In this document: in pieces, positions 23,247 through 61,074 of the stretch | How the letters are laid out: every line of letters starts with the position of its first letter | Position numbering within the stretch: the stretch's first letter is position 1 | NCBI RefSeq assembly: GCF_020382885.2 | Contig: NC_058495.1 | Location: 18,210,127 to 18,274,126, forward strand | Direction of reading: 5' to 3' | Length of the DNA: 64,000 nt | Source: Scatophagus argus | Lineage: Eukaryota > Chordata > Actinopteri > Scatophagidae | Made by a program: the position numbers and the translations under genes | The notes under the pieces: model-generated | Database searches by the model: none | What the model was told of the DNA's origin: nothing | Seen by the model: the letters and a program-made list of their open reading frames with translations, nothing else

Positions 23247-24554
23247 ATGGCACAGCCGGCTCTACTACTTCCGCCAGAGGTGTGGAACCACGTTTTTCAG
23301 TATCTGTCAGCGACAGACAAGTTCGGCGTCCGGGCATCCTGCAAGTATTTTAAAAAACTTGTTGACCACGGATCTCTTTGGAAGGACTGGTCAGTTGTTC
23401 TGGGTTTTCAAAATGGCCCTTACAACAGTCAGTTCTGGACCACTCTTCGCCGCAGGAAAGTTACCAGTGTGGTTATGAGGAGCGCCAAAGCTAAGGATTG
23501 GAGACAGCTTGCCTTGTCCCTTCCTACTCTTACCACACTGGTACTGGACCCAAGCTCTAAAGCGAGCCTCGACTGCTTAAAGGACTTTCCACATCTGAAG
23601 CGTCTTGCTATCAGAAACAGTTGCACTTCTCTTTTGCTAGATGCGTCCACAGTGTGTCACCCCCAGCAGGTGACTCACCTTAACCTGTGTGATGTTAAGT
23701 TACCCACCACAGCACTGAGTCCCTTCATTTCTGCTGTCTCCCAGTTTGTAAATCTTACATCTCTGGTTTGTCATAAGATTGTAATATTTGAAGAAGCAAT
23801 TTTGATGCTTCGCTCCATACTTGCCTGCCTGCCTAAGCTGAAACATCTCTCACTGTCGGTCGTGCACACTCTCTACGCCAGTGCGAGACGCAGGCCAGGT
23901 TGCTTAGGAGTACACGGACAAGCTGGAGCTCCGTCCCTGTCCAGTTTGGAACTTATCGGTTGCATGGAGCATTCATTACCTGAAGATGCAATGAAGCTTA
24001 TGCCTGGCCTGAAGAGTCTTGCTGTTTTCTACAGGCAGGCCCACCAAGATATGTCAGAGAGATGGCCATCACCTGCGTGTCACCTGAAAACATGGCTGAG
24101 TGACCTCCCTCAACTGTCAACCCTGGTCATTGTCAAGGGACCACCTGTGAAGAAGTATGTCACCTCCATTCCAGCCACAGTGACCAGTCTCACATTGTGT
24201 GTTGCAGGGTTATCCTTACAGGACATGGCAGCCATAACGATGCAAGTACCAAATCTCCTGCACCTGCATATAGACCCCTGGCCTTCACATTTGGGATTTC
24301 ATGCAGCTCAAATCCCACAACTTTTTCCAAAGCTCAGAAGTCTCAAACTTCGCCATGAACATATACCAGAGAAGGATTTCTTAGCTCTTCACCAGCTGCA
24401 GGACCTGCAGTACTTGGAGATCCTGGATAGCCGCCCGCACCTCTCTGAGCTCACCAGAAAGCTCCAGGCTCTTACAAAGCATAGACTTCAGGTGAAAATC
24501 TCTCCACACCAGAGAGATGTTCTCTCTTGTTGTTGTCCTTATGAGGTGTATTGA
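23247..24554 (+). CDS. Intronless F-box / leucine-rich repeat protein
   Basis: Predicted substrate receptor of an SCF ubiquitin ligase: the F-box binds SKP1, the repeats bind the target. A single uninterrupted frame encodes 435 residues. The F-box is at residues 7-50 (LPPEVWNHVFQYLSATDKF, then ASCKYFKKLVDHGSLWKDW). About eight irregular leucine-rich repeats follow (for example LPTLTTLVLDP, FPHLKRLAIR, VTHLNLCDVKL, LPKLKHLSLS, LSSLELIG, VTSLTLCVAGL, VPNLLHLHIDP, FPKLRSLKLRH, LQYLEILDSR), then a short Cys-rich C-terminus with three adjacent Cys. A purine at -3 supports the start. The gene is head-to-head with rplp0 and convergent with pxn. Lack of introns could mean an old retrocopy, but the frame is intact, so it is likely functional. 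The exact FBXL family member is not recognised. Confidence 0.85.
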   Translation: MAQPALLLPPEVWNHVFQYLSATDKFGVRASCKYFKKLVDHGSLWKDWSVVLGFQNGPYNSQFWTTLRRRKVTSVVMRSAKAKDWRQLALSLPTLTTLVLDPSSKASLDCLKDFPHLKRLAIRNSCTSLLLDASTVCHPQQVTHLNLCDVKLPTTALSPFISAVSQFVNLTSLVCHKIVIFEEAILMLRSILACLPKLKHLSLSVVHTLYASARRRPGCLGVHGQAGAPSLSSLELIGCMEHSLPEDAMKLMPGLKSLAVFYRQAHQDMSERWPSPACHLKTWLSDLPQLSTLVIVKGPPVKKYVTSIPATVTSLTLCVAGLSLQDMAAITMQVPNLLHLHIDPWPSHLGFHAAQIPQLFPKLRSLKLRHEHIPEKDFLALHQLQDLQYLEILDSRPHLSELTRKLQALTKHRLQVKISPHQRDVLSCCCPYEVY

Positions 24555-27480: not shown

Positions 27481-30400
27481 CTAGCTGAAGAGTTTAATAA
27501 AGCAGCTTTGGCAGTAGGGCTTTTCATTCTGCTCCTTGAAAGTGCCTTTGTTCAGCTGCTTGAGACAGAAAGCACACACAAAGTGCTCTGGGTGGAACTT
27601 CTTGCCCATGGCTGTGATGCAGCGGCCGGTGATGGGCTTCTGGCAACCGGAGCACAGCGAGCCCCGCCGCTCGTGGTAGTGAGACTCACAGTAGGGCTGG
27701 CCGTCGTGATCGAAAAAGCTGCCGTTTATGAATGGTGTGAAGCACTCCTGGAAAATCAGAAGGGAGAAGAGGTAGAATTTACGATGACAGGTTCACACAA
27801 AATGCCCATACTCATAACAGATAGAGTCGAGTGGCTCACCCTGCAGACGAAGCATTCAGGGTGCCAGAGTGAATTGAGGGCAGAGATGTAGTTCTCCAGG
27901 ATGGCGCGGGCACAGCCACCACATTTAGGGGCAAACATGTCAAAGTAGTCCTTTCTGCAGTATGCCTTTCCATCCTTCTCATGGAAACCTAGAGAGCAGC
28001 AAGGGCAAACTCACTCTGTATGCTTCTTTTGATAGAAAATTCAACATTGCTCTTTTGTCTACACAAGCCAGGTGTTGTGGTATAAACTGATGAGCAGCTG
28101 GTACCTTCCGGTCCAAAAAAGGCTCCACACTGGGCACAGAAGAAGTGCTCTGGATGCCAAGTCTTGTCCAAGGCAGTCACTACTTTCTGTGAAACAGAGA
28201 AAGAGATGATCAGTCATTCAACTTCTGCTTGCCATAAACGAAAGTGATAGATCAGCAAGTCAGAGTCCAGGAGAGGGCAGGCAAAGTCCACAGAGGTGGT
28301 TGTGGGAGGTGCTGGAATGCTATGACTGTTGCCTCATGTTTTCCAGGCCTGATAGCTTTTTTTCAGCAGCTTCAGCTGGAAGGAAATTGACTTGACTGTC
28401 TATGTAATACAAGATTTCGAAACACCCACTCCCACGCAAAGTCTTTGCAGCAGGGTAAGAATTTCTCAGTGTATTACTTTCAGAGCACAAGTTATTCTTC
28501 ACCTTGCCACCAGGGGGCGCAGAAACTTAATGACATTAGAAATTTAACCAAAAAAAAAGAAGTGAACAGGGAAACCTTGTCAGTGGTTCATTTTGGCTAT
28601 CATGAGGATAAGGCTGAGCGATGACAAGCAAGAGAGGACAGCAGCATGTAGTGAGACGGACATATGAATTACTCTGCATGCCCACAGCAACTAGAAGTCT
28701 CTTCAGTTATGCTACTTCTAGTACTGTGTATCCATGTGTGTGCGTGTGTCTTGAGAAATACGGCAATTTGCATGCAGTGAGTCTTCCAGAGTAAGTCGTT
28801 AGTCCATTATGTTATGAATAAATAAATATCATTGTCAATCCATCCATGGTACATATGCTTCTGTGTGTGTGTGTGTGTGTATGCTTTAACATTTGCATTA
28901 CTAACATCCAGTATGGGTCCATTACAGTAGTGGCATCGTGGTGAGAACAGGCTGTGGTAGTCTTTCTCACAGAAAGGCTGTCCTTCTCGCTCAAAGAAGT
29001 TCCTGGAGCCTATCTCCTCCTGGCAGTGGGTGCACACAAAGTGCTCGGGGTGCCACGTTCTGCCCATGGCAGTCACCACCTGGTGTGGGAAGACACAGTG
29101 CATTAAATTATAATGAGTTTCTAAGGAAAGTGGCTCAGTGGAGAGAATCATTGCAGCTTTGCATGCAAACCAGAAAGAGGATATTGCAAACGGCAGCAGA
29201 TGCAGATTTCTTAACTACAAACAGAACAATAAAGTTTGCACATTTATCTAATATATACTTGTGTGTGTAGGATTAAGTGTTATCATCACCTGGCCAACGA
29301 TGGGTTTCTTGCAGGCTCCACAGACACCTTTAGCCACCGTCTGGACTCCGAGTCTGTTGAGGTCAGACTGCAAGCTTCCCAGCATGTTGTCCAGTTTATT
29401 GGCTGCTTTGGGTGGACCAGTGGGGGAAGTCTTTCCCTGGGACTGGATCTGATGTGGACAGAAGACCAAAGTGGCTTCAGTATATAACAGGTTGAGAAAA
29501 ATAACAGAATTTGATGATTAATTACAATTAATTGTTCGACAGTTCATACTTCAAGAAGAAGCTCGTGATAAGCAGGTACTGTCTCCTGCCAGAAGTGTGA
29601 GAAATATGGATAACTGCACAACTAACTGAGCTAACTAGATAACAACATCCACAGTTAGCAGCACTTGGTTGTTACTTCAGCAATAGTCACTGTAAATCAT
29701 CTCAGTCAGTCATCTCAATCAGTGAATTGTACTCCAAAATTGTTGGGGCACTAAGTGGTACAAAATATCAATTCCTCCACAGAGTTGCATTAAGTTTTTC
29801 TGAGTCAGGGATATTTTCATAATTTTGTTTGATCTTTTTCTGGACTTACCTCATTGTAATGTTACAAACTTTGTAAACGTTATAGAATTTATTCATGTAA
29901 CCGCCTTTGTTGTCGCTCGTGACAACAGTCTCTACCTGAATTGCCGTTAGTACAACAAGCAATTAATCCAAGTGGTGGTCGGTTTTCTCCTCTTTCAGAT
30001 AAAAGAAATTACCTAGACAGGCAATGGACATATTAACCAGGACAAAATATGTTCTCATTAACGCTAAAACAAATCTGCAGGCTTGGATGATATCAGTAGT
30101 GTTTGTGAACGTGTGTGCAGATGAATCTGGCTACTGTAATGTAGGCAAAACCAGACCTTCTCAGATTGTGTGGTTATTGGAGCTTCATGACTCTTACATT
30201 CCTCTGTGAGGGAAAATAGCATCTCTCTCTTCTCTCTCTCTCACACACACACACTCACAAACACACGCACAAATGACCCAGCTTACCTTCAATCATCCAG
30301 TCTCCAACTCTACAAGCCGTTACCAAACCTACTTCAATAAAGACACTATGGATTCTAAAAGAGGTGATTGTACATGTATATGGTATTCAACTTCAACATC

Positions 30401-33400
30401 TAACCTAGCGACACGTGTTGACGGAAGTCCTGTGGGAGCTGCTATAATTGTGGTGGTAACTGTGCTGTCATGTGGCAGATTAGGTTTCAGTTGCAGTGCG
30501 AGCCTACCATTCCTATGCATGGCAGGACACTTTGTGTTATGGGAACGGGAGGGGGGCAGGGGGGTGGCACTCTTTTTGCATCTAAGCTCTTAAAGGCTCC
30601 ACTCTGAACACGCAGCCTTTGGCGCCGTCAGATGTCAGAATTAGAAAAGGGGCTCAGCCTCTCCAGCCTGAATGTCAGCACCACTCATAACCTGAACTGA
30701 CTGGGTCTCAGACAAAGCTTTCAAGAGGCTCCCTGCTGCAGCCTGGACACCAGAGGTCAAAAACAGAGCTAATTACAAGACAAACTACAAACCTCATGTA
30801 AATACAGAGATGCAGCTGCTTGGATCTGAACCAGATCAAAGTGTACAAAGTGTAAAAGACAGTGATGATAGAAAGTGGAAGGAGGATAAGAGGTCAGAGA
30901 AAAGGAGAGGTGAAGAAAGGTGAGTCGTGCCTGGATTGGTGAAAAGATGGGGTCATACTCGGTCTGACAACCCACTGACACAAAGACCTTGGGAGGCGGA
31001 GGTGGCGTGATGGGCTTGGGAGGGGGGCTAGGTGATGGAGGGGGCTGGACAGGTGGAGGCGTGGGTTCCCTGGGGGGAGGCGTGGGCTCCTTGGGAGGAG
31101 GAGTAGGCTCCTTAGGGGGTGGAGGAGTAGGTTCTCGAGGAGGGGGAGGGGTCGGTGGGGGAGGAGGCAGTGGTGGAGGAGTCTGCTTTACTGGGGGTGG
31201 CTTTTTGGGTGCAGGGGGAGATTGTGGAGGGGGGAGGACTTTTCTCTGTGGGGCAGGAGATTCTGGAGGGAGGACGATCTAGGGGGAAGAAGGAAACAGC
31301 AAAGAGAGGATAGCAAACAGATGATATACAAAAACAGGGGTCAGAATGAAGAAAAAGAAATGGTAACAGAAACAGAATTGGCACCACAAACTGAACTGCT
31401 TAGTGACTGCCAAAGACAAATAGAAATTTTATGGCAATGTGATGAAACATCATATATATTTAACATTTGCCAGTTAATTTCTTGGTCATAAGCCAAGCAA
31501 ACATAAGCTAAACCATCAGAGGGACATAACATCTGACTCTTGGTCTAACTTGGTCCAAGAATAGCACTGACTCCTGCAATGTGCCTCTAATGTCTACCTT
31601 ATCCACAGACGGTTGGGCCCCTTCTTCCCGCATTCGCTGTGGGTTGGACATGACGATGACTCCCTCTGTCAGCCAATCATCTGGCTGCTGTTTACGCCGG
31701 ATGTTTCGCTCAGCCCGCCCAATTCCCAGTTTCCCCTGCAGCTCCTCAATGAGTCGGTCTTGCGAGTTGCTCTTATTCACAATGATCGGTCCCATTTTAC
31801 GTCGCAACATACCCTCCCTATACATCGGATGCACATTGGGGGTCTCTTTGGTGCGGCGAATTACTGATTTCAGCTGGAAAGTAGATGATACAGGAGGTGT
31901 GGGAGGCTGGGGATGAGCCATTCATCAGAAAGCCCATGTTGGGTTACAAGCACAAGCAGGGCAGCACAGGATGTCTCATTCAAGCAGCAAAAGTGCACAA
32001 GCACTGGCTCCAGAATATACCTCCAACCAGGAACTCCAGTCAAATTTACCTTCTGAAGCTATGCACAGCCTTCCATTCCATTCAAATTCATTTTCCAATG
32101 TCAAACCTACTTTAAACTGCTCAGGTATCTGCAACACGGCATGCTGGATAGCTGAAGTCAAGACAACACAGGTCTATCACAAAATGCTTGCACACAAATC
32201 TGTGCCAAAGCAAGGCCCAAGAACAAAGAAGCAAACTTCCTGTATGTTTTTAACTACATGTACACATTCTTGGTGTATATATACTTTATATATGCAGCAA
32301 AAACGAAAAATATCCACCCTGGTGTTTTTGTATTTGGTGATTAAAAACACATTTTTTGCATCATCCATCCATTGCATAAACATGACAGGCCAGGCCCTGT
32401 GACTAATACAGCAATGCTGACTGAGGCAAGTAGGGGCGTGCAGAATCATCCTTTGAGAAAAGCTTTCAACATCAGCCACAAATTGTCTCTACGGGGAGAT
32501 TTCTCCCTCAAGCCAGTTTGCAATTGCTATGCAATGACACCACATGCATCACACCACATAGAGGAATAACTCTTCATGTTTCTTCACACTTTATGCTTTT
32601 GTACTTTTTTACAGCTCCTTTTGTTTGTAGGAGCTGCTCTCCCAAAATAAGATGATTTCAGCATCTAAAAATTTACTCTGCTTGAACCATTATGTGATGG
32701 TTCTAACATTATTGTCAGAGATAATTAATATCTTGGGCCACATGGCCAAATAACAGAAAGACCACATGGGGTACTAAAGCCTCTCTACCTTTATGCCAGC
32801 AGCTTATTTTGGGAGAGTCAGGTTGAGTGTCCTACTTGGCCAGAAGCGGATAGTCGCTCGACAGCAGAGGGCTGCTGTGTGGGCAGGTCCAGTGTTGCAT
32901 CTGGTGTCCCGGGGCAGGTGGAGGGGGTGAAACACTCATCCATCCAGCTGGCCTCAGTCATGGGAGTCAGGGTTCCCTCTCGGCTGAAATCAGGGTAAAT
33001 TCCATCCTCCTCGTCCCAAAATCGGTCTTCATCTCCAGGCATAACGGAGGCATGTGGCTGGTTCTCACTTTGTTGATTAGAGTCAGGGGATAGGACTTTG
33101 TCTAAAGCATTGTCCAGTAATGGCTCCCGGCATGGCCATGTTAAATCCAGTATTCCATTTCCCTGCTTTTCTGAAGTAGGGGAAGAGAGGCTACTTGATG
33201 GTATAGCAGCAAGTGGAACTGGGGAAGCTCTGGGGCTGCTGGTGCCTTTGACTGTGTGAGTTTTTCTGGTGGCTAAAGCAGGACTTTTGAGAACTGCAGT
33301 TTCACTCTTTGGAACAGTAACTGGGCTTGAAAGCCTTGGAAGCGTCACTGGACCGGCATTCTTTTGCAGTATTTCAGGAATCGAATTCTTGGGTACACTT

Positions 33401-36400
33401 GCTGAACTAGAGATATTAGGTACGGTCACAGGACTTGAAAGCCTTGGAATTGATACTGGACTAGCACTCTTGGAAACTGTTTCGGGACTAGCACTCTTTG
33501 GGACAGTTACTGGACTAGAGCTATTAGGGACTGTCACTGGACTGACACTTTTTGGAACTGGACTTGAAAGCCTAGCAACTGTGACAACTGTGTGTGGCGT
33601 AGCTGTCTTCACCTCTGGACTATGATTTATAGAAACCTGACTGCTACCTTTAGGAAGTGGGCTTGGACTCTTGCAAGGCTGACTTAGATTGGCACATTTA
33701 AGATCAGGAGGACTAGAACTCTTGGCTCTAAGAAGGGAACCAGGGTTCATAGACACAGTGACAGGACTAGGGCTCTTGGAACCAACTACTGGACTGAAGC
33801 TTCCAGTAGTGGTTACTGGACTAGAGCTTCTGCCAACAGTAACTGGACTTGAGACTTCAGTAACTGAAACATGTGTAAGGCTCCTGACTTGAGTTTGATG
33901 AGGCGACTTGGTGGTGCTAGAGATACTGAGGCTCTCCACATGAGAGAGCTCAGAGGTCTCAATGCCAACATCGTCTATTTGTTTTATATGGGAGTACTGA
34001 AGGCTCTTGGATGAGGAAATCACTACAGTGGAACTGGGTGATGACGTCGGGGCTGAACAACCATCTTCATCTATATGGAGTTCCAATGGAAGAGGAGTAC
34101 AGGCAGGAGTAGTGTAACTAGAAGGTAGAAGAGTGTCCACTGAACCAAAATTAGGATTTATAGATGCAGCAGTTACTGCTTGGACAACTGGTGTAGCAGC
34201 TACCAACAAAGGGTCTACTGCTTCCTGATTCACAGACAACTGAGACCCAGACTGAGTTGGGAGCAACAATGTAAAAATTGCAATGTCCAAACAAAGACAA
34301 GACATACACAGTGATAGAGAAAAGAGAAAAGAGACCGGGAAAATCACCATGAGAATGAAGGATATGAAGTGAAAGTTGAAGTGAAAGCCAAGCAAGGGTA
34401 GAGTCAACTGAAATGTTTTAAAGCAAACATTCCAAAATTACTACAAAAATTAAAGTAAAATAAATAATATATATATATTATTCATATCTTTCATATTTGT
34501 TGCCGACAGATATGCAGGACGTGGAGAGAACTACTTCAAATTTCAAAAGCGACTATAATTGACACTTTGACAACAAACTTGAACATTATAATCTTAACAA
34601 AGATAATATTTACTGCCAGAAACTGTATTTTAGTGCATTATGTTGATTTTGCAACCCGAAACCTCTATTGTTGCAAGCTTGCAACAAAATTGCAGATTAC
34701 TACAAATAAAACAAACAATCTAAACGTTATCTGGTATGTAATTTGGTGACTTGTGTGTGTGTGGGGGGGGGGGTACACTTTTTCAACTAAATTCTAAATT
34801 AAAAGTTGGTTGTTTGTTATTGGTCAGCTCTAAAATATTTTGTTGAGCAAATGCATTTGACATTCCAAAACCCCAAATATGCAAAAGACACTAAAGAAAA
34901 TTAGTCTGCTGATCCAACGCATTTCAACAATAAATTTAACACTGGTGCAAACCCCAACACGTCTGAAGTCTGACACAGCTGCAAGGTGCCAAATATAAAC
35001 ATCCTCCATCAAGTGTGCAAACCCTCACACTGACTTGTGAAACATACTCACATTGCTTTGGACTTTGAAGTCAGAAAGTGAGGCCATTAGCTCATCCAGC
35101 TCTCGTGTGGCAGAGGAGGCAGACATTCTGGTTTGCTGCTGTGCTGGTGTTTCCTCTTGTCCGTCTGTTTGTTCGTCTGACACAACTAACGGTGTGGGAC
35201 TGAAAAAGAAAAGAACACAAACACCTAAATTCATGACCTTTCCACACTAACTGTTAATATAAGATCCTTAACCACTAATTTAAACAACTACATGCAGTGG
35301 CATAATTTCTGTTTTGCCTTAATGAATTGCTGCTTACATGGGTGAGGGCACAGAGCTTTCCAGCTCATCCAGCAGGCTCTCTACACTTGGTCGTACATCC
35401 TCTATTGCTCGAGCGGCCACACTGCGTTTGGGCTTCTCCAGTGCAGGTGGTGCAGTCTTGCCTGCAGTGGAGACTCCATTCTCCTGGATATGGTGGGTGA
35501 TGCTGCTGGCAGGCAGTGGTGGAGCTGCTTCTTCTATAGTAGAAGATAAAAAACAAAATGAACTTTCTTCACTGCGTATTAGTTTATTATACTGCAACCA
35601 CCAAAAATGCAGCGGAGGGAAGGGACAATACCACAAAAACAGCAGCGCCAAATTTAGAAAGTGACATCAGAGTCACTTCAGAGAAGCATGAGCGTGTTTT
35701 TACTTATTGTAAAGTTATTTCTTTGTGTACCTTCTGTGGGGAAGGCAGGGGTGCTTTGCTGGACAGCGTTGAGCTCCAACAGCAGGCGGTCCAGCTCAGA
35801 CAGGTTGCTGCCCAAGGATGAGTTCATGGCAACAGTTGATGACTCACTGCTCTTCTGCTTATTAGGGAAACTGTACAGAGCAGGGATAAGACCCAGTATT
35901 TAGCATGAGCAGAGCTATGAGACTGTGGTTATATTTCAACACTGATATCATCTGAACAGTGTTTCTAGCTCACTGGTGAGTGACAAATCAAAAAGACCTC
36001 CAGTCTTATGTTTTATGTACGCGTCAACAGAAACATTATGTTCTCTCCTGGCAGATTTCACAATAAGGCTGAGGTTTCCCACAACCATGGTGCAAAGTTA
36101 TCTATAGTTCACTCACTTTTGTTGGTGCAAGTTACTGTGAGACTGTTTAGAAATGTTTGATCCAACTAACATGAGCAAAAGGCCTACCTGTATACGTGGT
36201 CCTCTTCACCAGTAGGTTGGGTCGGACTGCTGCTCTCTCCAGACCAGGGGCTTCTCTGAGCTGAGCTGAAAGACTGAGGACAGGAAGTGAGGTCAGTATA
36301 GATACATAGACACATTAGAGACACACATTACAGATACACATTCGTAAATGAAACACTTAATTTATGCTTTAATTCATGAGTAAATTAAACAATGTTTTTG

Positions 36401-51400: not shown

Positions 51401-52473
51401 TGCACAGTCAGTGGGTGTAAATGAATACAAAAAGCTCAGAGCCTGATAGCTCAGTGCAAGCTGTGTTACTTAAGTAGCTTCATTTTATTATTATAATTTA
51501 TTCCGCAAGGTTTGTAGCAGTCTGACTACATAGAGTGATAAACTAAAAGCTTGTCAGCCATAATTGTGAACAACTGAAATAATAGCAAAGGTACAGCTGA
51601 AGAGGGAACCTGGAGAACCACGCATTTGTGTGCATAAAGAACACTGTGCCTCCCCTGTTACCACAACCTGCACTGAGAAAATACATTTTCTGCTGTCACC
51701 AAGTGTGCCATAATTCACCGAGTTAATCTCGTCTCTACGGGCAGAAGTGCAGCACAGCTCTGAGCTGAGTTCATCTGCAACTCAATACCGACACAGCACT
51801 GCTGCCACAGCTGAAATCAGGGCTGAATTCAGGCTGAAAAATAGTCGCAAGGGGGCTTTAAAAGAGGCTACAGAGGTCGGTTTTTTTCAGCTGTTACTAT
51901 CCCACCTGCAGAAGAGGCGGTTATGTAATCCTGACAATGACCAGGAAGGGGTCAAATACTGTCTTATCAAATGGCAAATGCCACTGAGGACTGGTGGTCA
52001 AATTTATATATTTCTGCTAGTTTGGAGCTTGGAAAAAGTTACCGGATCCCTGCAGCGGTTAGTCCTGCCTAGTTAAGTGATGTGGAGGAACTGTGTGGTG
52101 AAACCCGCCCACGAACACTAACAATGAACCGGTCAAAGAACTACGTCCTCTCAAATACGATTTTTACTTTACACGTACCGGCTAACACACACGTTAAACT
52201 CGGCTAATTATCCCAGTCAGTGCGTTGCCAGTGATTCCTTGTGTCAGCACGCGGGGCCTTTCTGGGCACGTAAGCTCGCGCTGAGCTCAGCTCAAACCTG
52301 TTTAACTTCACCTACCTGGACGGGGTGCCGACCCAAACTACAGTCAAGAAACCCCTTAAAACGCCTCGTTTGGTTGTACACATCAGCACTACGTGTTTAC
52401 GCTAACAGCACACACGGGCGCGCGCAGGGTAAATGTTGCGTTCAAGGCGAGCGAACTTACCTAAATCATCCAT
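27481..52473 (-). CDS. pxn: Paxillin
   Basis: Focal-adhesion scaffold linking integrins to FAK, Src, vinculin and Rho-family regulators. Core coding exons: 52473-52461 (MDDL), 36635-36460, 36273-36188, 35870-35731, 35533-35338, 35199-35052, 29448-29290, 29079-28906, 28186-28105, 27988-27840, 27747-27481. These join in frame to 529 residues. LD motifs: LD1 3-13 (LDALLADLE), LD2 117-127 ([10 protein letters not shown]), LD3 189-198 (VESLLDELE), LD4 237-248 ([12 protein letters not shown]), LD5 271-283 ([13 protein letters not shown]). Four LIM domains run from Cys296 to the end, the last ending KLFS. FAK/Src sites are Tyr31 (ETPYSFP) and Tyr91 (DHVYSFP, human Tyr118). Three extra cassette exons between LD4 and LD5 (34251-32836, 31873-31598, 31278-30931) would raise it to 1209 residues. 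The first intron is 15.8 kb. Confidence 0.97.
28864..28880. repeat. (TG)n microsatellite near pxn LIM exon
   Basis: About eight uninterrupted TG units, 25 bp from the donor of exon 29079-28906. Similar runs lie at 40433-40452 and 48098-48114 in the first intron. Confidence 0.85.
30931..31278 (-). CDS. pxn: pxn cassette exon 3: proline-rich, EPTPPP repeats
   Basis: 348 bp, phase 0 at both ends (116 codons). After acceptor CCCCCTAG it encodes a run of proline blocks: [11 protein letters not shown], then four to five (K/R)EPTPPP repeats, then [20 protein letters not shown] and IFSPIQ. LPPPP blocks fit Ena/VASP EVH1 or profilin ligands and PPxP fits SH3 ligands (inference). The end is uncertain: the in-frame exon limit CCAATCCAG is followed by GCACGA, a non-consensus GC donor; an alternative GT donor at 30976 (TCA/GTGGGT) is also phase 0 but would drop the VGCQTE segment. 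It sits where human paxillin beta and gamma carry their insertions. Confidence 0.65.
31598..31873 (-). CDS. pxn: pxn cassette exon 2: basic segment
   Basis: 276 bp, 92 codons, phase 0 at both ends, acceptor CTACTTTCCAG and donor GATAAG/GTAGAC. It encodes a basic, well-folded-looking stretch: [34 protein letters not shown], then [15 protein letters not shown], whose DRLIEEL core looks like an LD2-type helix (compare DRLLLEL), then [21 protein letters not shown] do not recognise a named domain. High coding quality and preserved phase argue that it is a real alternative exon. Confidence 0.7.
32836..34251 (-). CDS. pxn: pxn cassette exon 1: giant Ser-Pro-rich exon
   Basis: 1416 bp, 472 codons, open throughout, phase 0 at both ends (acceptor CCCAACTCAG, donor GGCCAA/GTAGGA). 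The middle consists of about twenty degenerate repeats of the type SSPVTVPK, giving many SP/TP sites for proline-directed kinases. The C-terminal part is acidic ([18 protein letters not shown], then [18 protein letters not shown]). Predicted disordered. It follows LD4 in the gene order. No named domain recognised. Confidence 0.7.
38107..38128. repeat. (CCCCCA)n tract
   Basis: Four consecutive CCCCCA-type units followed by CCCCC. The complementary strand is G-rich in regular runs of four to five G and could form a G-quadruplex. Confidence 0.8.
43550..43800 (+). mobile_element. Tc1/mariner transposase 3' fragment, inverted copy
   Basis: Plus strand encodes the transposase C-terminus ([16 protein letters not shown], then [11 protein letters not shown]), followed by about 120 bp that is the reverse complement of 44170-44300. 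A 12-bp unit (AATCTTGTGGAA) is duplicated in tandem here but single in the partner copy. The region upstream of the C-terminus is missing. Confidence 0.7.
44165..44820 (-). mobile_element. Tc1/mariner element remnant with DDE transposase end
   Basis: Read on the minus strand, 44455-44522 encodes the hallmark [14 protein letters not shown] of Tc1-type DDE transposases; downstream is the family C-terminus ([19 protein letters not shown]). The N-terminal DNA-binding part is absent and the frame has stops, so it is a dead fragment. The right edge near 44800-44820 (TTTTTGTCTGTATAGTGTAG) resembles terminal sequence of fish Tc1-like copies. Confidence 0.8.
48390..49185. mobile_element. Teleost fold-back (MITE-like) repeat
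   Basis: Two diverged arms in inverted orientation. Left: GACTGGAAACAGG then AACAGCTAGCC at about 48735-48770, with AAAGGGGAGTTTTGGAAA at 48389 as outer end. Right: TTAATTAGTGAGC, GGCTAGCTATTTCCCTCCG, TTTCCAGTCCTTATGCTAAG and CCCAAAATATCAAGC at 48998-49170. This layout is that of a very abundant short non-autonomous repeat in percomorph fishes. No coding capacity. Confidence 0.7.
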
Positions 52474-55659: not shown

Positions 55660-56016
55660 TAAACCTGGCAGAGAGCAGGATTCAAGGCATGTTGGTTAGC
55701 CTCATAGCAAGAGGGTTCCAGGTTCGAATCCCGGTCTTCTATGTGGAGTTTGCATGTTCTCCCTGTGTCTGCGTGAGTTTTCTTTGGGTATCCGGCTTCC
55801 TCCTGCAATACCAAAAACATGCACAGTAGGTTATTTGGCTACTCTAAATTGCCCCTATGTGAGAGTGTGTGGTTGTCTGTCTTTGTGTGTTGGCCCTGTG
55901 ATTCACTGGCGACCAGTCCAGGGTGTACCCCGCCTCTCGCCCGTAGTCAGCTGGGATAGGCTCCAGCTCCCCCGTGACCCTGACGGATGAACAGTATAGA
56001 AAATGGATGGATGGAA
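55660..56016 (+). mobile_element. tRNA-derived SINE
   Basis: RNA polymerase III B box GGTTCGAATCC at 55721-55731, with A-box-like GGTTAGCCTCATAGC before it. Then come the typical body phrases GTGGAGTTTGCATGTTCTCC, CTGGCGACCAGTCCAGGGTG, ACCCCGCCTCTCGCC and CAGCTGGGATAGGCTCCAGC, and the 3' repeat GGATGGATGG. Orientation is plus. The body corresponds to a very common teleost SINE whose tail is shared with a LINE partner. Confidence 0.85.
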
Positions 56017-58356
56017 TAATTCACCAAGCTGGAAAACATACTTATTTTCTCTCTTGCCGAGTGTTAGACAGGGAGACTGATACCACTCACATGTCTGACT
56101 GAAATGACACAAAGCTGCAACCAAGAGAGGATTTTTAGATCCCCACAGCATGAAGACTGAAAGCACAGGGAGTTATGTCTGTAGGTCACATGTTTATTCA
56201 GATCGAACAGAAAAGCATTTTGCTCAGTTCAAACACATCAACGAGCTGCACAACAGAAGCGACTTGTTGAAGACAGAGCTTCAAGAAGTCAGAGCTTAGA
56301 GTAAGGATAATTTGTATGCATGTGTTTGTTCAGAGCGAGAGCCAGCTTCATTATGTAGAGGTGAGCCTCACGTAATACAGTGTATACACCATTTCACAGT
56401 TTCGAACACACTGTAAATATTATAACTGCAATCCTGGTGTATTTTCTGTCGCAGGGTTTGATAATTATGAAGCTGAAGTTCATAATTACATGTAATCATG
56501 GTATAATGCTGGGTAGCTCACAAGCTGTTTCCTAGCAACACGTTTTCAGGTTCAAACCTTGTATCTCCATGATGTTATCTTTTGCTGAGCTAAAGAAGAC
56601 ATGTCTGCTTGCTCGATAAAAATGATTTTCAACATTATCCGATCAACATACAGGGGTTTCATGAGCACAGAGCAGCAGAGAATTTTCTCAAGCCGTTGAT
56701 TCATCTAAAAATCTGCTAAGCATCAAATGTAAAGAAAACTGAAGCAACATTTGCGGATATACATCTACAGCTTGTTTATCGCTTTTTAATCATCACCTAC
56801 AGATCAGATTGTGGTTTAGTCTGAGCCTACATCTCCGAGATGATCCTGACAGAATATACCAATGTATGAAGCCTGTGATCAAAAGAATCATTCATTCTGT
56901 CATTGTGTTACTTACGGATAGAATTGCAATGAAAACAAATTATTCCCCCCCTTTTTTTTGTTGGGGGGCAATGTGGGGTCCCTGGACCACCAAAATGAAA
57001 ACCACCATGAGATATGAAAGTAACTCAGTCCCTTCATTTCCAACTTGGTCAGGCTTTGAAAACTCCCTTAATTGAAGCTGTGTGTGTGTTTATAGTTTAT
57101 ACAAAGATTAGATTTGTCAAAGTTGGAGAGGTATAGCAGTCTGGCTGACTCCCTGAAAAAGCAACTGGAGCAACTGAAGACTGTTGCCTTGTCAACGAGA
57201 TAATGAACGAAGCTGCCGTTACCACCTCTGACAACTTTATACACTTCATTAGTAGGTGAAATAGAATCAATGTACAAGACCCAAAGGATCCAGCATCCCA
57301 ATGCCAGTGACCACAAAATACCCCAAGAGGTCCTGTGTTCCTTCAGAGCTGTTTAGGCAGCACAAGTGGGACCTTCAAAACACCAAGCATGTGGTTTTAA
57401 TGCTGCAGCTGTTCTGGTGTACATTTCTCACATTGAAACACCTTTGTCGTCCATCACCTTTTCTCTGCTCCCTTGAGGAGAGTATCAATAACCTGCTGAT
57501 GCAGGCCAACAGTGTGGAGGATGAGTAGCTGGAATTGCCTCCTCAGAAACTGCTGTTGGCCACCTTTGACTTGCTGCCCGGTACCAAACACCTAACTTTT
57601 AATCCTGCAGAGAAACTGTATGACAAGTGGGAACATTTAAGGTCAAAGGGACAACTTTCTCCCAAAGTTCCCCTCCTTCAATGGCCACAGTCTGTTCTGT
57701 TAAAACAGGATGCATGATGTGAGCTCAAATGTCAAAGTTGATCCAAGCACTTATCCCTCACCATTCCCTGCGCGTCTTCTCTCCACAATGCAATACTTCA
57801 GTCTGGGTCTGACAAGCTGGATCCCCTCCCTTCCCTGCCCCAAAACCTCCTGCTGGAACAACCAGGGATTTTATCACCCTGCCAAGGTCTGGCAAGTGGG
57901 GAAGGTGAAGGCGGTAAGGATCACTTGGTGGCCTGTCACCCAAACTGCACAGTATAGCATTACCCTCTTCACATCATCGCAGCACTGAAATAACAACAGG
58001 GCTTTGTCTCACTAAAGTCCTCTGTTTCAGTAGCCAAACGCGTTAATACGTACACACAACACACACACATCCTGCTTACACGTTATACACACGTTTTGGA
58101 TTTAATCTCTTGGGGATAAGGAGGACCACCAACTGCACATCTGCTATTGTCACGGTCTGTCAAGTGGAATTAGCCATTAAAAGATGAGCTGGTCAAGCCG
58201 TGTTTTCAGTCGGTGATTTGATGATGCTATAAACATATGAGCACCACTTACGAGAATCTAACCTCTTTTGTTTCATCTCTATACTGTCTTTCCTTGCCGT
58301 CCGGATGATATTTTTCTAACATCAGAAGGAGAGGCTGACTACTGTCTTTGAAAACT

Positions 58357-58630: not shown

Positions 58631-61074
58631 TTACTCCTGATCCTTTTCCTCTCCATGGGTGATGATGTGAACCAGGTTCTTGTAGTCCAGGTTTCCTGCC
58701 ACATCTGGGGGGAAGGCAGTGAACATCTGCTCCATCTAACAAACAAACAAACAAAAAAAAATCTTTTTTTTTTTTTTTATCAGAGTCACCACATAGTTCA
58801 GTGTGCATGAAAATATGTCATGATGATTCAGGAGGGTTTTTATGTTTTTGTATGAAAATGTTTCTGATGTGGATGAGGATGATCGTCATGATGACGTTCA
58901 TCCTTCAGTCCTTTTTGGACTCACCCCCCCCCCACACACACACACAAAGGATGACAAAGCAATAACAATGATAATTAGTCTAACAGCACTGTGATGTACC
59001 TCTTCAGCGGAGAATCGGTCCGCTTGCGTTGTTAGCATCTGTGTCACACTGAAACAGGAAAGAGAGAAAGAATGACGTATGAGATGATGATGATGATGAC
59101 TGCGGTCACACCAGGAGGAAGTGTGCTCATCATAATGGCTTTCGCTTATTGTGGAGTTGTACATGGATGTGCGATTGCACTCAGACTCAGAGAAAAACTG
59201 AGTCATAATTTTCATATTGCAAATTGACGTGCTGTGAGGTCTGGAGTGCGTTTAAGCACTTACTAGTCCTTCCTCAGCACACCTTTCCCCTCAGGGTCGA
59301 AGACTTTAAATGCGTTGAGGATCGTCTCCTCTGGATCAGCACCTGGATGCATTAAAACATTCAGTACAGTTCTTCACATACATTTAAACTGATGACTCTA
59401 TTGCGTGACTGGGATTTAGTTTTCGTGATCAGACGTTCATCTTTAGCTCGTCTGTCTTTACCTTTCAGCTTCTCACCGAACATGGTGAGGAAGACGGTAA
59501 AGTTGATTGGGCCCGGAGCCTCTTTGAGCATGTCATCAATCTCTTCCTGTTTCACGTTGAGACGTCCTGTGATGGACATACGACACAAGCGGATTGAATC
59601 AGACCGAATTGCTGCACATCCACAAAAATATGGACCTTGAGTCACCATTATTACTCAAAGGCTGCAGCTGAATGCAGCTCATAACATCTTGCGAGGCTGA
59701 ATGATGTCAACATACCAAGAGCAGCAAAAGTGTCCCTCAGATCATTCTTGTCGATGAAGCCATCTCTGTTCTGGTCCATGATGGTGAAGGCCTGCGGTCA
59801 GCACATACAGAACATTTATACATTTATTTGCACTATGAAATTAAAGGCTGATTCCCTTCGTGCTACATACACGGAACATGTTCACAGATAATTTAGAACA
59901 GGGTGGGATGAAGCAAAAAAATAAAAAGAAGTGATAGTTGCTAACTGATTTCAACCACATGCTGTCGACCTACGTCTCAGAAAGTTAAAACCCAACCACT
60001 GTCACACACTGCTTGGATTCCTTTTCTTTACTTCAGTATTTTGTGCCATCTTTGTAGGTGAACACTCTTAAGTATTTATATCCTGCAAGCCCCCGGGATT
60101 TAGCGTGGCATCCAGGGCATGCCCAGCAGTTTATCTGTAGCCTAATCACTGATGACACAGTCTGGATGTCTGGGCACCGTGCACTCTCATACCAGCATAC
60201 CACAGGCCTCGCTGCTGCCAAGCAAGGGGCAGGAAAATAGACAGGTGGACATACTACAGAGATGAACAATGGAAATGAAAAGACAGAAGAGGACGCAGAG
60301 GCAAGAAGAAGCAGAGACTTCTGCATGTGTTGCCGTGCATGACAAGAAAGCACCTGGATCACAACACTCGACATGGTGAGCTAACATGCTAACATTCATA
60401 GACATTTCCTCAGCCAAATCAGAAAAATAATAATAATAAAAAAGGTTGAGCAGCTCTCACCTCCTTAAATTCCTGGATCTGAGCCTGCTCAAACATGGAG
60501 AACACGTTGGAGTTGGCTCCCTCTGCTGCCCTCTTCTTGGCTTTCTTGGGGGCCTTTTGGCACAGAGAAAGGAGATGAGGCAGACACTGTACGCTGCTTA
60601 AAGTAGAGCTAGATTTTATGGCTTAATAAAAGAAAAATGTTGGGCAAATGCTTTTTGAATATAATACTTCATTAAATGTTATGCTTAGAACACCAAAATC
60701 TGCAAAAATGAGCCGACTGTCTAAGCCAGTAACTATTTGACATTCATCACGTCAGTCTCCATTACCAAGTCAATAAATTGTGTTGTTGTTTTAGGATGAA
60801 TTAAATGCAGCCTGTACATGACAATGCATTCAATGTCTGGGGAAAAGTAGGTAAGAATTAAACCTGTGCAACAGCAACCCACAGCCCAAAGATTTTTTTC
60901 AGAAATTTTTTATATGATTTTCTTCTTATGAAGCTCATGTTTCATCGCAGAAAATATTGAGAAATATTAGTTTTATTAGTGGCTTTAAATTATATTATTG
61001 GACTCATCTGTGCAAAATAAATTTAGCATCCTTAAAGAAAACAAAGGACACACACACACACACAGGCTTACCAT
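58631..61074 (-). CDS. myl2: Myosin regulatory light chain 2, cardiac/slow type
   Basis: Binds the neck of the myosin heavy chain and tunes contraction through phosphorylation. Coding exons: 61074-61072 (Met only), 60553-60461, 59791-59716, 59566-59462, 59342-59264, 59048-59000, 58735-58631; 169 residues. It starts [20 protein letters not shown] with the phosphorylatable Ser16 (human Ser15). EF-hand 1 loop [12 protein letters not shown] (38-49) keeps all calcium/magnesium ligands; later EF-hands are degenerate, as in the family. Strong signatures are [40 protein letters not shown] and [20 protein letters not shown]. The [10 protein letters not shown] and [19 protein letters not shown] stretches match ventricular MYL2 better than fast-muscle MYLPF (EDVITGAFKVLDPEGKG). 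The a or b fish paralogue is undecided. Confidence 0.93.

Follow-up and report, generated by a model that had tools for sequence, protein, structure and literature searches.

A fish paxillin gene with three large frame-preserving exons between LD4 and LD5, and a second paxillin gene in Scatophagus argus with the same insert

The paxillin gene and its insert exons

The stretch of Scatophagus argus DNA analyzed here (the window; 64,000 nucleotides on contig C3) carries a complete fish paxillin coding region on its minus strand, with coding exons that run from 52473 to 27481. The gene is identified as paxillin by five LD motifs and four LIM domains. In a pattern search of the long protein, strict LD matches fall at residues 4, 118, 189, 238, and 952, and Pfam places the Paxillin family (8.2e-122) in the LD1–LD4 part and four LIM stretches (1.3e-71) at the end of the protein. 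Between the exons that encode LD4 and LD5 lie three insert exons, A, B, and C, each larger than every other coding exon of the gene (13–267 bp). The exons at issue are:

52461–52473, minus strand: first coding exon, ATGGATGATTTAG, the sole match to the MDDL pattern in the strand
35052–35199, minus strand: upstream flanking exon with LD4, ending in phase 0
32836–34251, minus strand: insert exon A, 1416 bp, 472 codons, Ser/Pro-rich, open, phase 0 at both ends, AG acceptor and GT donor
31598–31873, minus strand: insert exon B, 276 bp, 92 codons, basic, open, phase 0 at both ends, the best conserved part of the insert
30931–31278, minus strand: insert exon C, 348 bp, 116 codons, proline-rich, open, phase 0 at both ends, with a conserved end
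29290–29448, minus strand: downstream flanking exon with LD5, starting in phase 0

All three insert exons have lengths that are multiples of three and no stop inside. Because both flanking junctions, the end of the LD4 exon and the start of the LD5 exon, are in phase 0, every combination of including and skipping the three exons is open (8 of 8), with predicted proteins from 529 residues (none included) to 1209 residues (all included). Inclusion of A, B, and C places 680 residues between LD4 and LD5. An earlier note on this DNA had reported three exons of these sizes at these positions, and had described them as open, in phase 0, frame-preserving, and leading to a 1209-residue product; the window sequence confirms both statements.

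Exons A, B, and C are real and coding. Exon A lies within an open run of 539 codons, a length reached in none of 1000 dinucleotide shuffles of the 5603-nt LD4–LD5 interval (longest 222), and none of 1000 shuffles of exon A was open throughout (longest 196). In-frame codon usage amounts to 0.135, 0.179, and 0.427 bits per codon for A, B, and C, against maxima of −0.077, 0.155, and 0.123 for the best frame of 1000 intron-1 segments per exon length, under a score that penalized stops. The margin is narrow for exon B, and for exon C all three forward frames beat the control, as is expected for a proline-rich stretch.

A second paxillin gene and conservation of the insert

Searches covered the 571-Mb genome in its 48 contigs. 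The LIM4 exon as query gave at least 21 matches at E ≤ 0.001, the best four being the window (100% identity) and places on contigs C4 (90%), C21 (69%), and C6 (61%). Among the LIM4 matches listed, the C4 gene is the only other close paxillin relative. The places on C21 and C6 are taken, as an unconfirmed assignment, for relatives of leupaxin and Hic-5; the third-best LIM4 locus had no PDB match at 1e-8.

The C4 gene (C4:1027727–1030737, locus L010) is a second paxillin gene with all three insert exons in the same order, strand, and phases. Its exons A, B, and C measure 1260 bp (420 codons), 267 bp, and 408 bp, and each is in phase 0 with no stop. Frame breaks in close relatives had been named in the earlier note as grounds for rejecting the exons; the one related gene compared, the C4 copy of the same genome, has none, which answers that point in part.

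Identical residues number 134 of 392 aligned in exon A, 68 of 89 in B, and 75 of 114 in C. Silent-site differences are saturated (0.79, 0.788, and 0.75 for A, B, and C), and replacement-site differences are 0.51, 0.149, and 0.25. Fisher tests of silent versus replacement change on rounded counts gave p values of 3e-20 for B, 7e-18 for C, and 9e-18 for A, the last being less sure because the alignment of A is gappy. Since 68 of 89 residues of exon B are identical while silent sites are saturated, comparison of the copies indicates that the insert exons are coding and that purifying selection has kept them in two S. argus paxillin genes. Over exon length, identity is 74% for exon B, 80% for the LD5 exon, 71% for the LD1 exon (51 of 58 residues aligned), 57% for E3, and 55% for LD3; the LD2, LD4, and LIM exons, at 87–98%, stand above exon B.

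The two LD4–LD5 intervals share four strong DNA matches, which comprise exon B, the end of exon A, and two parts of exon C. The match on B stops at most 3 nt from where that exon starts, and the match on A at most 3 nt from where exon A ends; one of the C matches starts 42 nt before the exon. At the end of exon A, the copies differ at 21 third positions versus 14 first or second positions, and across the last 20 residues of exon C there are four differences, with third positions changed in 15 of 20. Genome-wide, the protein sequence of exon B has two matches at E ≤ 1, which lie in the paxillin genes. Two segments of exon A are conserved:

32836–32964, minus strand: conserved end of exon A, closing in SASGQ, 29 of 43 residues identical to the C4 copy
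34060–34086, minus strand: conserved island LELHIDEDG, from the alignment with the C4 copy

Splice signals and motifs of the insert

Splice signals of the insert are ordinary at the acceptors, which are 70%, 80%, and 90% pyrimidine for A, B, and C (70–90% at the other ten). Donors were scored with a splice-donor matrix, and nine other donors of the gene were scored alongside, the first exon's donor being left out. Exons A (5.1) and B (4.8) have GT donors within the range of these nine (3.4–8.8), among which LD2, LIM1, and LIM2 score 4.0, 4.0, and 3.4 and LD4 scores 8.8. Such middling strength argues neither for nor against regulated inclusion. The earlier note had credited all three exons with splice signals and had missed that exon C has a GC donor. 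Two signals of the interval are:

30929–30930, minus strand: GC donor of exon C, CAG/GCACGA (exon/intron), score 1.0
32543–32548, minus strand: TGCATG in the intron after exon A, one in the 5603-nt LD4–LD5 interval

GC donors are rare. The C4 copy nevertheless has one, CAG/GCAGGA (score 1.8), at the equivalent place after exon C, so that the intron is a conserved GC-AG intron; its LD4, A, and B donors score 3.4, 3.6, and 4.6. In the window, a GT at 30793 (score 4.7) would preserve the frame after exon C. TGCATG, which we take to be an RBFOX-type element, has no occurrence in the C4 LD4–LD5 interval. RBFOX-type elements in the interval are few and TGCATG is not common to both copies, so we make no claim of RBFOX control from them.

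Exon A contains 30 SP/TP pairs and 91 Ser in 472 residues, exon B has 19 Lys and Arg versus 12 Asp and Glu, and exon C has 57 Pro in 116 residues and five matches to PxxPx[KR]; the motif of the opposite SH3 class has no match in the insert. These counts fit the earlier description of SP-rich, basic, and proline-rich segments. The accompanying picture of a long flexible spacer holds only in part, as exon B and the ends of A and C are strongly conserved relative to the C4 copy and the insert is more than a spacer. Exon A also holds a 27-bp repeat array of four copies. Tandem arrays at 31055–31183 (exon C) and 33454–33560 (exon A) have periods of 15, 21, 24, and 27, all multiples of three, and a short row in exon A (33528–33549) has two copies with a period of 11. 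Three short segments of the insert resemble docking sites:

31736–31762, minus strand: LD-like segment QDRLIEELQ in exon B, identical in the C4 copy
33091–33117, minus strand: weak LD-like segment LDNALDKVL in exon A (LDEALDKLL in C4), the two not paired in the automatic alignment
30958–30978, minus strand: SVGCQTE in exon C, conserved in both copies, with what we take to be a likeness to an LC8 (DYNLL) docking site

In the accessible text of a published account, the LD motif is defined as LDXLLXXL, with an additional inverse type (PMC7703752). QDRLIEELQ is alike in having Asp at +1, Leu and Ile at +3 and +4, and Glu-Leu at +6 and +7, and in being predicted to be helical; it differs in having Gln instead of Leu at position 0, for which it fails the strict pattern, and that pattern has no match in the insert. 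It is the sole relaxed-pattern match in the window insert and the sixth-best match in the whole protein, behind the five real LD motifs. Shuffled sequences scored as high 8 times in 1000 and 17 times in 2000 for the window insert, 40 times in 2000 for the C4 insert, and 4 times in 2000 for exon B, in tests chosen after the motif had been seen. Single-sequence AlphaFold2 modeling of exon B predicted a helix at residues 36–49 (mean pLDDT 55.5, with block 41–50 at 73), and the same modeling gave higher scores for the known LD4 exon (helix 18–42, last blocks at 88 and 80). Because the strict consensus failed and the helix confidence is below that of the LD4 exon, we call the segment LD-like and not an LD motif, with a helix predicted at modest confidence. 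A limited literature look-up, confined to parts of the papers concerned, found no published description of an LD-like motif in such an insert. Searches of Pfam with A, B, and C (E up to 1) and of PDB with B (E up to 10) and C (E up to 0.01) returned nothing, and 39 pattern matches in GTDB genomes included no confirmed relative of exon B.

Known long paxillins, rival explanations, and meaning

According to the accessible parts of a zebrafish study, exons 7–9 of pxnb encode a 625-residue insert and are described as alternatively spliced; the insert was detected by reverse transcription PCR at several stages and by in situ hybridization (pxnb-ins) in vertical myosepta and fin bud and not in heart, and long paxillin was seen as a Western band of ~130 kDa (PMC5091871). 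These parts also describe regions of partial homology in gar, coelacanth, and elephant shark, and state that the insert is exclusive to pxnb, having been lost in the pxna genes of teleosts and in tetrapods (PMC5091871). The S. argus insert is alike in consisting of three exons between LD4 and LD5 (680 versus 625 residues) and unlike in occurring in two paxillin genes, of which the window copy has pxna neighbors.

Upstream of the window gene is a myosin regulatory light chain gene (frame 59361–59654; the best four of its 34 PDB matches are cardiac MYL2), and CNH-domain exons lie 4–6 kb past the window end (C3:18278234–18280169) beside coiled-coil frames. Pfam did not give the identity of this last gene, which we take to be citron kinase. 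On the other side are genes for golgin A7/ERF4, a 60S acidic ribosomal protein (presumably rplp0), an F-box protein, and a protein with SRCR and lysyl oxidase domains. The F-box gene, an open single exon at 23250–24551 on the plus strand with weak similarity to leucine-rich repeats, has the ribosomal protein gene on one side and the paxillin 3′ end on the other. The C4 paxillin gene is ~10 kb from a gene that matches the NcsA family and is presumably ctu1. A stretch of ~320 bp upstream of the window gene (55700–56019) is highly similar in several frames to one near the C4 gene; it is perhaps a dispersed repeat and was left out of synteny.

In teleosts other than zebrafish, pxnb is reported, in the portion of the study available, to adjoin ctu1 only, and cit and myl2 go with pxna (PMC5091871). 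By this neighbor rule, the sole basis for the naming, the window gene looks like pxna and the C4 gene like pxnb. Zebrafish primers were tried as a discriminator and dropped, as their scores did not decide. Window versus C4, the pxnb E6 primer matched 17 versus 14 of 20 and the pxna E2 primer 19 versus 16 of 20; among the seven remaining primers, one was equal at the homologous place, five were equal or within one (not all at homologous places), and for the seventh, the insert primer, the best C4 site was not the homologous one. Whichever gene is named pxna, the presence of the insert in both close paxillin genes does not fit the claims, as worded in the text available, of exclusiveness to pxnb and of loss from teleost pxna genes. 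The disagreement concerns teleosts in general, and the insert may well be absent from zebrafish pxna.

Large paxillin inserts are as a kind already known. In the accessible text, human paxillin beta and gamma have inserts of 34 and 48 residues downstream of LD4 (PMC5316197), which agrees with the insertion point given in the earlier note. Its statement that the fish exons are far larger also holds, but a large insert is not new, given zebrafish and extended paxillin (ePXN). The latter, a disordered form in cardiomyocytes, arises from an alternative Pxn exon under RBFOX1 control (PMC12490864, PMC13024003). As far as those sources could be consulted, ePXN is alike in having an alternative exon that lengthens paxillin by disordered regions and motifs related to kinases; it is unlike in that RBFOX1 control is described for ePXN, whose exon is numbered both 6 and 7 within one review. 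What is added here is limited to the findings that a second gene carries this insert, that the two copies share the GC donor, and that LD-like and QT-containing segments are conserved.

We consider it probable, at roughly 80%, that the window gene is a fish paxillin with a three-exon insert of the zebrafish pxnb-ins kind that provides an optional long isoform. The insert exons would be included in some tissues only, and the GC donor would make inclusion of exon C, at least, dependent on splicing factors. In the long isoform, the insert would keep LD1–LD4 at a long distance from the LIM domains, its SP/TP-rich part could be phosphorylated, PxxPx[KR] stretches may recruit SH3-type partners, and exon B would add a helical LD-like docking site and a basic surface.

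Several points weigh against this interpretation. Evidence from this fish consists of genomic sequence, and that the exons are cassettes that can be skipped would follow from the zebrafish data, beyond what a genome can tell. The zebrafish long protein is itself reported, in the parts available, only at a low level and in later embryos (PMC5091871). By the matrix used, the exon C donor is weak in both copies; conservation over the whole of exon A is poor (28%), and nine further weak DNA matches between the two intervals (E 0.004–0.65) fall outside the pattern of the strong ones. Homology to the zebrafish insert was compared through one 18-nt primer, which matches 13 of 18 at 33953, with in-frame ELSH and an 11-base run unique in the window; equal or better scores occur elsewhere, with 13 of 18 at the unrelated sites 33232 and 62035 and 14 at a nonmatching exon C site of the C4 copy. 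Any partners named for the LD-like, SH3-like, and LC8-like segments are guesswork.

If the exons were constitutive, the normal product would have 1209 residues and there would be no switch. We regard this as unlikely. In its favor, several other donors of the gene (LD2, LIM1, and LIM2) are no stronger than those of A and B. It would also agree with the conservation of all three exons between copies and with the C4 copy, in which the LD4 donor is itself weak beside those of A and B. Yet in the window the LD4 donor outscores all three insert donors, of which that of C is GC. Moreover, the zebrafish text available describes alternative splicing of the exons and a band of ~60 kDa at all times of development, detected by an antibody that sees both Pxna and Pxnb (PMC5091871).

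A change from GT to GC could instead mean that exon C is no longer spliced, with the insert decaying or another donor in use, as the rarity of GC donors, the score of 1.0, and the better in-frame GT at 30793 would allow. The GC donor looks old and in use, however, because it is common to both copies and coding is conserved up to it, which leaves decay very improbable. We give almost no credence to the open frames being another gene nested in a paxillin intron. The size of A, B, and C relative to the other coding exons might suggest one, but in both copies the exons sit between LD4 and LD5 with identical strand, order, and phase, and a zebrafish primer pair in insert exon 7 and exon 10 gave products, by the part of the study available (PMC5091871). 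The exon 10 primer matches the window LD5 exon at 14 of 18 positions.

Paxillin is a central adaptor of cell-matrix adhesions and has mostly been studied as a form of ~560 residues. That the protein sequence of the long form is conserved in two fish copies argues for a selected function of the extended isoform, and the insert offers a testable docking segment and a conserved nonstandard splice donor. A tentative further reading, which we hold to be less probable than not, is that the insert, instead of being peculiar to pxnb, is an ancient functional module of vertebrate paxillin retained by both duplicate genes of this fish: an optional second docking array in which exon B supplies a conserved, sixth LD-like helix and exon C an LC8-like site, and which is gated by a conserved GC donor. 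An insert in two genes disagrees with the published evolutionary account and, should the exons of mammalian extended paxillin be these same ones, the reported loss from tetrapods would have to be revised as well.

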